Shown: in pieces, positions 768 to 48,779 of the stretch
How positions within the stretch are numbered: the first letter of the stretch is position 1
How the letters are laid out: each line of letters starts with the position of its first letter
NCBI GenBank assembly: GCA_947444925.1
Contig: CANFBW010000005.1
Location: 1-64,000 of the forward strand
DNA from: Flavobacteriales bacterium
GTDB taxonomy: Bacteria; Bacteroidota; Bacteroidia; Flavobacteriales_C; GCA-002722245
Direction of reading: 5' to 3'
Length of the DNA stretch: 64,000 nt
Translations under genes and position numbers: made by a program
Notes under the pieces: generated by a model
What the model was told of the DNA's origin: nothing
Seen by the model: the letters and a program-made list of their open reading frames with translations, nothing else
Database searches by the model: none

Positions 768-2156
768 ATGAATTTCGATCTTATCGTTATAGGAAGCGGT
801 CCTGGTGGATATGTCGCTGCCATCCGTGCTTCACAATTAGGATTAAAAACAGCTATTGTTGAACGTTCTGAACTGGGCGGCATCTGCTTGAATTGGGGCT
901 GCATACCTACCAAGGCCTTATTGAAAAGCGCCAATGTATTTGAATACATCAATCACGCTGCCGACTATGGCATCACTGTTAAAGGCGCTGAGGTAGACTT
1001 TAAAGGAGTGGTAAAAAGAAGCAGAGACGTTGCCGACGGCATGAGCAAAGGCATTCAGTTTTTGATGAAGAAAAATAAAATCGAAGTTATTGCAGGTACT
1101 GCAAAAATTAAAGCTGGAAAAGTAGTTGAAGTAACGGCTGCCGACGGAAAAAAATCCGACATCAGCGCCAAAAGCATCATCATCTCTACAGGAGCGCGCT
1201 CCCGCCAATTGCCAAACTTACCACAAGACGGAAAAAAAATAATAGGATACCGCGACGCATTGGTATTGCCGAAAGCGCCTAAGTCAATGGTTATTGTTGG
1301 ATCAGGAGCAATTGGCGTTGAATTCGCATACTTCTATAAAGCAATGGGCACCAACGTTACCGTTGTTGAATTCCTTCCGAACATCGTTCCAATTGAAGAC
1401 ATCGACGTATCTCAAGCTTTGGAAAAATCGTTCAAAAAACAAGGCGTCACAGTAATGACCAACGCCGCTGTTGAGAAAGTTGACACGAGTGGAAAAGATT
1501 GCAAAGTGACCATCAAAACAAAAGATGGCGAAAAAGTGCTTGACGCTGAAATCGTTCTTTCTGCTGTAGGTATTGAAGCAAATATTCAAAACATCGGCTT
1601 GGAAGAAGTAGGTATCGTTACCGACAAGGGCAGAATTTTGGTGGATGAATATTACCAAACCAACATGCCGGGTTATTACGCTATTGGCGATGTTATTCCA
1701 ACACCAGCATTGGCGCACGTTGCATCGGCAGAAGGCATCATTTGCGTTGAAAAAATAGCGGGCCACCACCCTGAACCATTGGATTACTCAAACATTCCGG
1801 GCTGTACCTATTGCTCTCCTGAAATTGCCTCTGTGGGCATGACGGAGAAAAAAGCAAGAGAAGCTGGTCACGAAGTTAAAATTGGTAAATTTCCTTTCAG
1901 TGCATCCGGAAAAGCTTCAGCTGCTGGCGCGAAAGACGGTTTTATCAAAATGATTTACGATGCTAAATACGGCGAACTTTTGGGTGCGCACATGATAGGC
2001 TTAAACGTTACTGAAATGATTGCAGAGATAGTTGTTGCTAAAAAACTAGAGACCACAGGTCACGAAATTTTGAAAGCAGTGCATCCGCATCCTACAATGA
2101 GCGAAGCGATTATGGAAGCTACTGCTGCGGCCTATGGCGAAGTGATACATTTGTAG
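768..2156 (+). CDS. lpdA: Dihydrolipoyl dehydrogenase (E3)
   Basis: A full-length 462-residue flavoprotein disulfide oxidoreductase that reoxidises the lipoyl groups of 2-oxoacid dehydrogenase complexes (and glycine cleavage) with NAD+. The N-terminal FAD-binding GSGPGGYVAA motif is at residues 9-18. The redox-active cysteines are C40 and C45 in GGICLNWGCIPTKALL. A second dinucleotide motif, VGSGAIGVEFA, binds NAD. The FAD-contact motif YAIGDV follows, and the C-terminal dimerisation domain carries the catalytic HPHPTMSEAIMEA His-Glu pair. All key residues are present. The GICLNWGCIPTKALL form is usual in Bacteroidota. It is a single-gene unit with a strong terminator right behind it, and no E1/E2 subunit genes are adjacent. 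A near-match to the -7 box (TATCTTCG) lies upstream. Confidence 0.96.
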   Translation: MNFDLIVIGSGPGGYVAAIRASQLGLKTAIVERSELGGICLNWGCIPTKALLKSANVFEYINHAADYGITVKGAEVDFKGVVKRSRDVADGMSKGIQFLMKKNKIEVIAGTAKIKAGKVVEVTAADGKKSDISAKSIIISTGARSRQLPNLPQDGKKIIGYRDALVLPKAPKSMVIVGSGAIGVEFAYFYKAMGTNVTVVEFLPNIVPIEDIDVSQALEKSFKKQGVTVMTNAAVEKVDTSGKDCKVTIKTKDGEKVLDAEIVLSAVGIEANIQNIGLEEVGIVTDKGRILVDEYYQTNMPGYYAIGDVIPTPALAHVASAEGIICVEKIAGHHPEPLDYSNIPGCTYCSPEIASVGMTEKKAREAGHEVKIGKFPFSASGKASAAGAKDGFIKMIYDAKYGELLGAHMIGLNVTEMIAEIVVAKKLETTGHEILKAVHPHPTMSEAIMEATAAAYGEVIHL

Positions 2157-45327: not shown

Positions 45328-46212
45328 ATGAAAACATTTACATATTTACAAATTGCCAAATTCACGATTAGTGTCAGCAGCGCAGAAGATCATAAGGTTT
45401 TTATAGCTGACGGATACTTGCCTTTCGTGATCGATAAGCCACTAAACAATGATATAGTGATCGTGGTTCATCCTCAAATTCCAGCAAGTCTAATAAATAC
45501 TGAAAACATTCTTTACAAAGCGATGATTGGGAGCAATGATTTCTGGATCATTTGCAAATACAACAAAGGCTATAAATTCATAATCTACAAACAAGAAAAA
45601 CCCAATGAAATTCAACAAATTGCTTTAGTAGACGAAGGATTTACAAAATGGGAGGTATACATGTACCCACAAGAAAATAAAAAAACTGGCTTATCAGAAC
45701 TTGAAGCGCTGCAATATCCTTTAGGACCACTAATTCTTTATTACCTCACAGTAAATCACGAAGCAATAATGATACACGCTTCAGGAATTTTTGATGGAGA
45801 AAAAGGTAGGATTTTCAGCGGGTTTTCAGGAGTTGGCAAAAGCACAATGGCGCAATTATGGAAGAATGCAGGAAGCATACTTATCAATGACGATCGCCTA
45901 ATTATTAGAAGAATAAACAATCAATATCACTTTTTCAACACACCAATGTTTTATGCCGATGAGCCTAAATCTGCTCTTCTTACACACTTGTATTTACCCT
46001 ACCATTCCGCAGAAAATAAATACAATTTAATTTCTGGATCAAGAGCTGTTGCGCGACTTCTCGCCTATTGCATTCAACATGGCTATAACAAAGCGCACAT
46101 GCAACATCACCTTTCCTTTTTGACGACACTTTGTTCCCAGCTTCCAGTAGCAGAACTTGGGGTCGTGCCCACGCCAAATATAATTTCCTTCATAAAGGAA
46201 TATGATGTCTGA
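45328..46212 (+). CDS. HPr-kinase-like ATPase/kinase of a peptide-modification locus
   Basis: 294 residues. The C-terminal half is an HPr kinase/PEP-carboxykinase-type nucleotide-binding domain: a preceding MIHASGIFDGEKGRIFSG strand pair, Walker A GFSGVGKSTMAQLW, and the acidic ILINDDRLIIRR motif. The N-terminal 140 residues are unlike HprK and have no recognised domain. Stand-alone HprK-like proteins next to PqqD and nucleotidyltransferase genes occur in RiPP-like clusters; in the paeninodin lasso cluster such a kinase phosphorylates the C-terminal Ser of the precursor. Here the neighbours are PqqD-like, nucleotidyltransferase and four peptide genes. There is no HPr or PTS gene. Start ATG at 45328 follows the terminator. 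Confidence 0.8.
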   Translation: MKTFTYLQIAKFTISVSSAEDHKVFIADGYLPFVIDKPLNNDIVIVVHPQIPASLINTENILYKAMIGSNDFWIICKYNKGYKFIIYKQEKPNEIQQIALVDEGFTKWEVYMYPQENKKTGLSELEALQYPLGPLILYYLTVNHEAIMIHASGIFDGEKGRIFSGFSGVGKSTMAQLWKNAGSILINDDRLIIRRINNQYHFFNTPMFYADEPKSALLTHLYLPYHSAENKYNLISGSRAVARLLAYCIQHGYNKAHMQHHLSFLTTLCSQLPVAELGVVPTPNIISFIKEYDV

Positions 46213-46672
46213 AAAAAATAATATTATTCTAAACACCGCTTTACACATACTCAACGAAGAACTCTTGGTAAAAATGGAAGTGGCTGGAAATAGCATGTAT
46301 CCATTTCTGAGAGAAGGCGATTTCATTTTCATGCGAAAAGACGCAATGCATTTGCTTAAACCTGGCGACATCATTGCTTTCAAAAGAAACAATTATTGGG
46401 TAGCGCACCGTCTTCTTGCGGCGAAATTAAACCATGGCGAAATAATTTTTCTATGCAAAGGCGATTCTTGTGTAAAATGTGATGAGGAAATACAAAAAAA
46501 TAATTTCGTTGGGAAAATTGTGGCTTACTCAAGAAATGGCAAAAAAGTAGACCTAGAAAAAGGATGGCAAAAAAAACTAGGTCAAATATTAGTTACTACG
46601 TCACCTGTCAATAAATACATACTCAATTTAAGTATGCGCGTCATTTTCAAAATAAAAAGAATGTTGCGATAA
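46202..46672 (+). CDS. S24/S26-family serine peptidase (signal-peptidase-like, soluble)
   Basis: 156 residues, overlapping the kinase gene by 11 bases (or 8 if the second ATG is used). The nucleophile serine is in VAGNSMYPFLREGDFIF (SxMxP). The second conserved region is PGDIIAFKRNNYWVAHRLLA, where the His of HR fits the Ser-His dyad of the S26B/archaeal type rather than the Ser-Lys dyad of bacterial LepB. There is no N-terminal membrane helix, which is unusual for a signal peptidase; the C-terminal VIFKIKRML segment may touch the membrane. A role in trimming or releasing the short peptides encoded nearby is inferred from context. Confidence 0.78.
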   Translation: MMSEKNNIILNTALHILNEELLVKMEVAGNSMYPFLREGDFIFMRKDAMHLLKPGDIIAFKRNNYWVAHRLLAAKLNHGEIIFLCKGDSCVKCDEEIQKNNFVGKIVAYSRNGKKVDLEKGWQKKLGQILVTTSPVNKYILNLSMRVIFKIKRMLR

Positions 46673-46696: not shown

Positions 46697-47905
46697 CTAG
46701 GCTTTTGAAAAAGTGAATTTTAATACTATTTTACTTAGCCCTATCCATATTCTCCATAAATAGTAAATCGGCAAGAGAAATGTATATCGCATCTTGTACC
46801 TTGCAACCATATATGATTTTTGCGGAAAAACATCATCAACAACATAGCGCAATTTGCTTTTCCAGCCACTAAAGCTGCTCAAAATAATCACATTTGAAAT
46901 TTGATACTGCACTTTTGCCAAGGCCTTTTGCACACCAAATTGATCACCGTTCAATGCACAAAGAAAAACTGATTCCAGCTCGTTTATGGGTGATGCAATA
47001 CCGTCAAAAAAGAAAGGAGGCACATTTGAATTCCAATAGCTTTGACATAAAAACATAATTTGCTGCAACTCCTTCAAACAATTGTACTGAACAGAACTAG
47101 CGTATAACAAATGCCAATCAATTTGATCCCGATGCAGAAGCAGCATCTCAACAATATCGTTAAAAGAACTAAACCTAAATTGACCACTTATTAAATGAGT
47201 GTATTGATGCGTGCACAAATGCTGCAAAAGATCTTCTACACAGAAATTCCGCCCATTCACACCTGAAAAGGCGCAGAAAACACTTCTACTCCAATAATCG
47301 TCTATATTGATGTTAAAATGCGAAAACGAAGAATGCACATGACGATGTAATTCTATCACCGAATTATTTTTGATTAGACAATAAGGATGATGGAATATTT
47401 CTTGACGCTCAAAGAATTCCGATTTTTTGGGGTGCGTCAACACCAATTTCCATTCATTATTTAACAAAACATTTTTCACCCTTTCAACATCCTGTGCTCT
47501 AACCAATAAATCGATATCGTTGGTAATCCTAAGTCCATAATCAACATACAAAACATCTAGTAACATGATGCCTTTTAATGGAATAAAATCCAAACCTTCC
47601 TGCTGCAGAACCTTTGCTGCATGTGTAAAATCATTGTACAAACGAATATTACTCGATAAATATCTATAGTAATTCGCTTTTAGTGTTTTCACAACCTGGT
47701 TGGGAAGTAAATTTTGATCAGAAAACCGAGTGCAATTTTTGAAAATCAAAGCAGCTAAAGCTGTAGATTGCGCTTTAGTCAGCACGGAATCCCAATCAGA
47801 AATATTTTGAGAAATTTGCTCTAAACGCAATAAATCGGGAGAGGAAATATGAAGAGTAGAGCCTAAAAGCAAAAATTGTTCTTCCCAAGACAAATCTGAG
47901 AACAT
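46697..47905 (-). CDS. Nucleotidyltransferase-family protein (NTP_transf_5-like)
   Basis: 402 residues from the ATG at 47905 (MFSDLSWEEQFLLLG), one base after the pqqD-like stop; starts at 47953 or 47974 would overlap that gene. The central region IPLKGIMLLDVLYVDYG then ITNDIDLLVRAQDVERV has the K-G and D-x-D pattern of the minimal nucleotidyltransferase family PF14907. The C-terminal half is helical. Such proteins accompany PqqD and HprK-like genes in lasso and HPr-rel-A type loci; their reaction is not generally established. It is convergent with the peptidase gene with a 24-base gap and belongs to the precursor operon. Confidence 0.8.
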   Translation of the reverse strand: MFSDLSWEEQFLLLGSTLHISSPDLLRLEQISQNISDWDSVLTKAQSTALAALIFKNCTRFSDQNLLPNQVVKTLKANYYRYLSSNIRLYNDFTHAAKVLQQEGLDFIPLKGIMLLDVLYVDYGLRITNDIDLLVRAQDVERVKNVLLNNEWKLVLTHPKKSEFFERQEIFHHPYCLIKNNSVIELHRHVHSSFSHFNINIDDYWSRSVFCAFSGVNGRNFCVEDLLQHLCTHQYTHLISGQFRFSSFNDIVEMLLLHRDQIDWHLLYASSVQYNCLKELQQIMFLCQSYWNSNVPPFFFDGIASPINELESVFLCALNGDQFGVQKALAKVQYQISNVIILSSFSGWKSKLRYVVDDVFPQKSYMVARYKMRYTFLLPIYYLWRIWIGLSKIVLKFTFSKA

Positions 47906-47906
47906 A

Positions 47907-48191
47907 TTAAGCCAAAACGTATTTTGATAATTTTTCAAGAAATGAAACCACATCCTGTTCAGCAGTTTCAACATCTACTTCAAACTCCTTGACCAAGGAT
48001 GCAACGATGGTTTCCAAAGAACTTACTTCGGTCAATTGCTCCCAAATGAAAGACCCGCTTTCATTTAAAGTAAACATCTCGTTCATCTCGGCGACATTGC
48101 CTTTTAACGGCACCAAAATCAAATCATTCGCCACCTTTTGAACAGCGAAGGCATTCTTGTGTGCAACAATATTCGGAATAATAGAATTCAT
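47907..48191 (-). CDS. PqqD-like peptide-binding (RRE) protein
   Basis: 94 residues with the winged-helix PqqD/RRE fold pattern: a strand VQKVANDLILVPLKGNVAEM, then the typical FTLNESGSFIWEQLTEVSSL and the helix IVASLVKEFEVDVETAEQDV, ending LEKLSKYVLA. PqqD-type proteins bind leader peptides of ribosomally made peptides and hand them to modifying enzymes. It lies between the four peptide genes upstream and the nucleotidyltransferase gene downstream, all on the minus strand. This is the strongest single hint that the small peptides are substrates. Confidence 0.85.
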   Translation of the reverse strand: MNSIIPNIVAHKNAFAVQKVANDLILVPLKGNVAEMNEMFTLNESGSFIWEQLTEVSSLETIVASLVKEFEVDVETAEQDVVSFLEKLSKYVLA

Positions 48192-48318: not shown

Positions 48319-48399
48319 TCAAGGTGTCCCCATTAATATCGAAATTTCACTGTCTAAATCTACCTTAATTACTTCTGGTTTCTCGTATTTCTTCTTCAT
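48319..48399 (-). CDS. Putative precursor peptide 4 of four (26 aa)
   Basis: Twenty-six codons, ATG complement at 48397-48399 and stop TGA. It begins MKKKYEKPEVIKVDLDSEIS and ends ILMGTP. It is the copy closest to the pqqD-like gene and the most diverged at DNA level. Its upstream spacer is only 21 bases but keeps the TTGGACTGAT motif that precedes copies 2 and 3. The Y-x-x-P-x-V motif fits a leader-recognition site. The C-terminus has a Thr before the last Pro. Confidence 0.72.
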   Translation of the reverse strand: MKKKYEKPEVIKVDLDSEISILMGTP

Positions 48400-48420
48400 A
48401 TCAGTCCAAAATTAAGTCAA

Positions 48421-48498
48421 TTATGATGCCATTAATATTGAAATTTCACTGTCCAAATCCACCTTAATTACTTCTGGTTTTTCGTATTTCTTTTTCAT
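48421..48498 (-). CDS. Putative precursor peptide 3 of four (25 aa)
   Basis: Twenty-five codons, starting as the other copies (MKKKYEKPEV) and ending SILMAS. The terminal residue is Ser. Its DNA and its upstream spacer are almost identical to copy 2 for about 90 bases, showing recent duplication, yet the last four residues differ. Stop is TAA. Confidence 0.72.
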   Translation of the reverse strand: MKKKYEKPEVIKVDLDSEISILMAS

Positions 48499-48554
48499 AT
48501 CAGTCCAATTAATTAAATTTTTCTCCACTAAATCAAATTCATCTCCTAAAATTA

Positions 48555-48638
48555 TTAGGTAGGTGACAACATTAACGTTGAAATTTCACTGTCCAAATCC
48601 ACCTTAATTACTTCTGGTTTTTCGTATTTCTTTTTCAT
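48555..48638 (-). CDS. Putative precursor peptide 2 of four (27 aa)
   Basis: Twenty-seven codons, starting MKKKYEKPEV and ending STLMLSPT. It is the longest copy, with one residue added at the C-terminus relative to copy 1. Stop is TAA, immediately followed by a second TAA in frame. Confidence 0.72.
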   Translation of the reverse strand: MKKKYEKPEVIKVDLDSEISTLMLSPT

Positions 48639-48698
48639 ATCAGTCCAATTAATTAAATTTTTCTCCACCAAATCAAATTCATCACCTAAAACGATTAC

Positions 48699-48779
48699 TC
48701 AAGGCGACAACATTAATGTTGAAATTTCACTATCTAAATCCACCTTAATCACCTCTGGTTTCTCGTATTTCTTTTTCAT
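48699..48779 (-). CDS. Putative precursor peptide 1 of four (26 aa)
   Basis: Twenty-six codons, the first gene of the minus-strand operon, starting MKKKYEKPEV and ending STLMLSP. Stop is TGA. Promoter box TAAATTTG lies 22 bases upstream. The gene is too short for most gene callers, but four paralogous copies sharing the protein frame with mostly synonymous changes (for example GAG/GAA, GTG/GTA, GAT/GAC) support real coding. No hydrophobic signal sequence. Confidence 0.75.
   Translation of the reverse strand: MKKKYEKPEVIKVDLDSEISTLMLSP

Follow-up and report, generated by a model that had tools for sequence, protein, structure and literature searches.

The window, a 64,000-nucleotide stretch of a Flavobacteriales genome, carries four tandem open reading frames that encode nearly identical short peptides, together with genes for a PqqD-type, predicted leader-binding protein (RRE) and three enzymes (Table 1). 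A sequence-only reading of this DNA had described the four frames as tandem precursor genes with a constant first part and a variable end; the frames are real, with 25 to 27 codons each, and lie on the minus strand, which that reading had left unstated, and the four ends that it gave are correct. Lengths are counted from the Met of MKKKYEKPEV, and longer frames from GTG or TTG starts are possible for copies 2 and 3 according to the ORF list. Residues 1-20 (MKKKYEKPEVIKVDLDSEIS) are identical in all four copies by alignment, and 22 alignment columns are invariant, all of these 20 included; after residue 20, copies 1 to 4 continue with TLMLSP, TLMLSPT, ILMAS and ILMGTP. The copies follow each other at spacings of 141, 140 and 99 nt, the last linker (copy 3 to copy 4) being the shortest, and the repeats partly extend into the linkers. 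No further copy was found in the window's genome, including in searches at E up to 10, and a promoter scan gave nothing above chance.

Table 1. Features of the precursor cluster (window coordinates)
Feature	Position	Strand	Details
HprK-like kinase, LppK/PadeK-like	45328..46212	+	TIGR04355 1.1e-8, below cut-off
Archaeal-type signal peptidase, LppS-like, S31-H69-D94	46202..46672	+	TIGR02228 59.4 bits, cut-off 51.85
NTP_transf_5 nucleotidyltransferase, LppN/PsmN-like	46697..47974	-	PF14907 2.1e-46
PqqD-type RRE, predicted leader-binding, LppB-like	47907..48191	-	94 aa; PF05402 9.7e-19
Precursor copy 4	48319..48399	-	26 aa, end SILMGTP, stop TGA
Precursor copy 3	48421..48498	-	25 aa, end SILMAS, stop TAA
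Precursor copy 2	48555..48638	-	27 aa, end STLMLSPT, stop TAA
Linker behind copy 1	48639..48698	-	Out-of-frame resemblance to WW-containing tail of relatives; possible decayed tail
Precursor copy 1	48699..48779	-	26 aa, MKKKYEKPEVIKVDLDSEISTLMLSP, end STLMLSP, stop TGA

The four copies were compared codon by codon, as the sequence-only reading had proposed. Codons 1-20 contain eight variable base columns, all eight at third positions and all eight silent, and over codons 1-25 the replacements are confined to codons 21-25 (T/I, L/A/G and S/T). The probability that a random single change in codons 1-20 is silent is 0.175-0.263 (kappa 1-4), which gives eight silent changes out of eight a chance of approximately 1e-6 to 2e-5. 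This is strong evidence that the peptides are translated and under selection; the four frames are coding and their first 20 residues are under purifying selection, which upholds the earlier claim of synonymous third-position divergence in a selected coding sequence. A non-coding or chance tandem repeat that is open by accident would suit the shortness of the frames and the partly repeated linkers, but it is refuted by the third-position-only changes in codons 1-20 and by homologous peptides that are open in many genomes with the same motif and the same gene neighbours, and its probability is negligible.

The Lpp names in Table 1 refer to the lpp cluster of Paenibacillus alginolyticus, from which linear polyphosphorylated peptides (LPPs) were described in 2026 (PMC13381572). 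The RRE gene starts 127 nt downstream of copy 4, and a profile of its product matches LppB (9x8z) as well as lasso RREs; the window RRE has an Asp at the column of LppB D70, the Tyr-binding residue in LppB. The nucleotidyltransferase start may alternatively be at 47905, directly past the RRE stop, and an alignment of six homologues has a D-I-D motif in five and D-M-D in the sixth. The kinase and peptidase genes are convergent with those of the RRE and the nucleotidyltransferase. In a seven-row alignment of the kinase, the Walker A motif GFSGVGKST and the motif NDDRLI are conserved. Its matches to HprK families all fall below the curated cut-offs, its matches to HprK structures are weak (E 0.012), an AlphaFold2 single-sequence model (pLDDT 38) gave no confirmation of the HprK fold, and a search of the protein against plasmids gave no match. 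The Ser-His-Asp spacing of the peptidase, 38/25, is common to seven of eight proteins, the window's included, with the third residue not located in the protein of locus L170. Among ORFs with 100 aa or more between 40 and 58 kb, no ABC/MsbA-like exporter, lasso cyclase or B2 protease was recognised.

Two more PqqD genes occur in the window's genome, on contigs C113 and C16. By eye, the first lies in a lasso-like fragment (L013, C113, 1261-4253) with a WITPEV precursor (1692-1850, minus strand), an RRE and the end of an asparagine-synthetase-like gene; longer C113-type versions in the sister genomes G008 and G009 (L015, L016) carry HprK-like, sulfotransferase-like and ABC exporter genes, also by eye. 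WxxP and YxxP systems are present side by side in this genome, as described for Bacillota. At the second locus (L014, C16, 3155-5923), a PqqD-type RRE and an ATP-grasp-like protein precede, by eye, an ORF starting MKKLQYERPVITRL, in which a YxxPxI leader-like N-terminus stands on a PLP-decarboxylase-like frame that continues in a second ORF; this may be an enzyme that carries an RRE tag of its own, or the result of a frameshift.

The presence of an RRE gene next to peptides with a YxxPxV motif agrees with the sequence-only reading, and its assignment of the peptides to RiPP-type precursors is supported by the RRE, kinase, nucleotidyltransferase and peptidase genes nearby. Its likening of the motif to the one gripped by lasso B1/PqqD domains does not extend to the enzymes nearby, which form no lasso set: an HprK-like kinase, a signal peptidase and a PF14907 nucleotidyltransferase are found, as in the LPP system. 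At the D70 column, Asp is present in all 15 LPP-like RREs, Glu in all four lasso-type Bacteroidota RREs (that of the WxxP cluster on C113 among them) and Gln in PbaB1; as Asp is also present in TbiB1, TfuB1 and the C16 RRE, it is consistent with an LPP-like protein, not diagnostic of one. An NVADMN-like insert before the LNE motif is found in 15 of 15 LPP-like RREs and is absent from the lasso-type rows. The four genes could alternatively be lasso precursors of an ordinary B1/B2/C cluster, given that YxxPxV with a discrete RRE is also known from lasso systems and that the C113 fragment of the same genome combines a WxxP precursor, an RRE and a partial asparagine-synthetase-like gene. A local lasso cluster was nevertheless rejected, because neither a cyclase nor a B2 protease was recognised near the four ORFs and a lasso ring with its tail needs more than the 5-7 residues of these ends; additionally, Glu is present and the NVADM-type insert missing in the C113 RRE, whereas the window RRE has Asp and the insert, and we regard this alternative as very improbable.

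Gene sets of relatives were reached through a nucleotidyltransferase search of other members of the class. An RRE, an HprK and a nucleotidyltransferase occur together in six other Bacteroidota genomes (G130, G215, G018, G189, G220 and G371), with a peptidase near this trio in five of the six (locus L039 is without one). In G215 (L036), a 48-aa peptide is encoded directly upstream of the RRE, MKKTYSKPQVKKVKIDNEISLVMGSP followed by FGPGGDPEASIVKMLNPLKWWK. The peptide sits between RRE and HprK in 6 of 19 loci, at distances of -4 to 26 and 5 to 16 nt, and in G790 (L170) the row consists of RRE, precursor, HprK, peptidase, ABC exporter and then a gene with a weak T9SS tail.

At E up to 0.01, a model of the peptides had matches in 15 of the 395 genomes of the class, and the matches in 11 of them were judged real; those within larger ORFs (L063, L065, L066) and weak, DW-ending matches in G048 (L064, L074) were not counted as family. 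The G048 peptides, with MKKKYSSP at the start and an acidic end DW, are another small-peptide type and may constitute a separate Bacteroidota family. HprK of the type described here is likewise found in 11 of 395 class genomes, and eight genomes share peptides and kinase (Fisher p 2e-12, or 7e-11 when the four doubtful peptide genomes stay in). Both p-values overstate independence, as some of these genomes are related to each other and system-linked peptides served as the seed of the model. Peptides without an HprK match occur in G098, G160 and G269, and HprK without a peptide match in G189, G245 and G174. In the order of G220, 22 of the 379 genomes searched encode such peptides, and around G252 the figure is 31 of 61. 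When restricted to the order of the window, here the same as its family, the model matched solely the window genome (1 of 10 genomes), and an RRE search for close relatives among genome contigs gave one Acidobacteriaceae contig.

For each relative, the neighbouring gene immediately upstream was scanned at its C-terminus for a T9SS sorting domain. Matches to TIGR04183 (T9SS type A sorting domain) were obtained for 21 of 23, 19 of 21 and 11 of 19 neighbours in three sets, with Pfam giving 20 of 23 in the first; the search around G252 contributed 19 new loci taken from 59 listed rows. In total, 62 distinct upstream neighbours comprise 51 T9SS type A genes, 7 RRE genes, 1 peptidase gene and 3 that are none of these. 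Locus L144 was scanned twice and is counted once among the 62, which leave out loci at a contig edge or with no upstream ORF in reach (L091, L118, L120, L139, L143, L145), L165 (no ORF), the repeats L116, L122, L125, L138 and L150, and matches without a locus. The gap between T9SS gene and peptide ranges from -4 to 287 nt and is mostly 8-115 nt in the loci measured. PF18962 matches number from 83 to at least 150 per genome (nine genomes); because the domain is thus carried by a few per cent of genes, the adjacency is beyond chance. The window copies are of the operon-linked type, and none of the four follows a T9SS gene. A literature search for T9SS with PqqD or RiPPs, or for small peptides with Por sorting domains, found no such pairing.

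Two loci among the relatives show further arrangements. At L172 (G475 contig 10, 8801-12361), two close precursors, which follow a T9SS cargo gene and a signal peptidase gene respectively, face nucleotidyltransferase, HprK and RRE genes, so that both genomic settings are joined in one locus. At L126 and L141 (G472 contig 19, 182832 and 185493), identical precursors lie 2.7 kb apart with the same T9SS tail upstream, which looks like a recent duplication of cargo end and peptide as one unit.

Across the family, Y-x-x-P-x-[VIL] is followed by [IL]-D-x-E-I-S-x-x-M-x-[ST] and this in turn by a variable tail rich in Pro and Gly; in a 26-row alignment, four positions never vary (Y5, P8, D16 and E18) and four more are almost constant (K2, I19, M23 and S25). 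The window copies end 0, 1 or 2 residues past the conserved Ser/Thr, and the tail is absent. It is conceivable that the four copies are relics whose tails were lost, either remnants of leaders or decoys that bind to the RRE and yield no product. The other full-length members displayed are all tailed, with at least about 9 residues past the conserved Ser/Thr, and part of the linker behind copy 1 is similar, in another frame, to LNPLRWWR, the end of the tail; scores as high came from 4 of 3000 dinucleotide shuffles and, among other pieces of the window, from 6 of 2388. The linker behind copy 2 has a weak similarity to the tail (53 of 500 mononucleotide shuffles as high), and the stretch behind copy 4 has none (260 of 500 shuffles as high). 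These resemblances make a loss of the tail through a stop and a frame change plausible. The stop has the same context, CCT TGA, in copies 1 and 4, however, which suggests that it probably predates the amplification; the silent-only divergence in codons 1-20 of copies that share this stop would then reflect selection after tail loss, and suggests that the short, tail-less peptide is selected in its own right. Gene conversion alone would not confine differences to third positions, and the M-x-S/T block is retained in all four copies. A set of relics is therefore considered unlikely.

Overall, we consider it likely that the four genes encode the precursors from which a linear RiPP of the LPP kind is made in a leader-dependent way, with a putative scheme of docking, phosphorylation, cleavage and action at the surface. 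Residues 5-10 (YxxPxV) would dock on the RRE, as the motif and the RRE residues suggest, and the HprK-like enzyme would phosphorylate the Ser/Thr at residue 25, the last position of the conserved block, by analogy with LppK and the end of the LPP motif. The PF14907 enzyme may then add a sugar or a nucleotide to the phosphate, as reported for pseudomycoidin. Judging from motif spacing, the Ser-His-Asp peptidase would cut off the leader after S20 and release TLMLSP, TLMLSPT, ILMAS and ILMGTP; the short variable end proposed in the sequence-only reading agrees in this respect, as a core from about residue 20/21 would correspond to the LPP cleavage position. The tail-less products would span 5-7 residues, and cleavage after residue 25 would leave almost no core. 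Because the genes of the relatives mostly lie right behind genes of T9SS-exported proteins, the cell surface is the most likely site or target of the product, in concert with T9SS cargo. The window would represent a reduced version, whose short precursor, devoid of the tail, has been amplified under selection on its leader.

A broader proposal is put forward tentatively: these loci may belong to an unreported Bacteroidota RiPP pathway in which phosphopeptides, perhaps phosphoglycopeptides, are partners of T9SS surface proteins. One central set of RRE, kinase, nucleotidyltransferase and peptidase might serve several precursors behind different cargo genes, the modified peptide might help to anchor, link or assemble the cargo at the outer surface, and the window might hold the smallest version. 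With the LPP enzyme set and matching precursors seen in Bacteroidota, the kind would span a second phylum, and the strong tendency of precursors to lie behind T9SS cargo genes offers a clue from genome context to the possible function of such peptides. For enzymology, the copies without a tail point to a substrate of minimal size, 25 residues long and with a single, strongly conserved candidate phosphoacceptor close to the end.

Among known systems, the T9SS type A cargo (TIGR04183/PF18962) is related to the peptides by position, most relatives being encoded directly downstream of such genes; the peptides themselves are unlike cargo and too short for a sorting domain. The paeninodin and pseudomycoidin systems, as reviewed in PMC8498205, share a discrete RRE, an HPr-kinase homologue that phosphorylates Ser and, for pseudomycoidin, a nucleotidyltransferase that adds hexoses to the phosphorylated peptide. 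They differ in that the window is without a macrolactam cyclase or a B2 protease and has YxxP, whereas paeninodins have WxxP.

The LPPs were stated, in PMC13381572, to be restricted to Bacillota, and their role is given there as unknown; a literature search for the LPP name found no other paper. According to the same paper, LppB binds the YxxP leader, with D70 holding the Tyr; LppK adds several phosphates to core S3 and leaves an S3T variant unmodified; LppS cuts after T-1 and has the triad S29/H68/D93; and LppN was inactive in the host used. Relative to the LPPs, the host differs (Bacteroidota vs Bacillota), and so does the gene arrangement, many precursors being scattered behind T9SS cargo genes among the relatives. 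An ABC exporter is present in the related L170 row and absent beside the window cluster; the window precursors have 25-27 aa vs 35-200 for LPPs; and the candidate phosphoacceptor is at core position 5 (Thr in copy 4) rather than 3. Of the LPP precursor motif YxxPxVLxHQxIxFETxxS, YxxPxV and a Ser/Thr at position 16 (Tyr = 1) are matched, but HQ and FE differ, the window block being D-x-E-I-S-x-x-M-x-[ST] in place of HQxIxFETxxS. With no exporter beside the cluster and half of the precursor motif different, the window system is a possible member of the LPP family proper, and because the window RRE profile scores the solved lasso RREs TbiB1 and PbaB1 above LppB, common descent with Bacillota LPPs is no more than possible. 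Common to both systems are a discrete RRE, an HprK-like kinase, an archaeal-type signal peptidase with an S-H-D triad, an NTP transferase, the lack of a cyclase, and a YxxPxV precursor whose conserved N-terminal block ends in Ser and whose C terminus varies. The triad spacing is 38/25 in the window vs 39/25 in LppS (from residue numbers), and, counted from the Tyr, T-1 and S3 of LPPs fall at 16 and 19 and S20 and the last conserved Ser/Thr of the window at 16 and 21. By this comparison of sequences, the window cluster would be a Bacteroidota, T9SS-associated variant of an LPP-like RiPP system, with a putative chemistry of the same kind.
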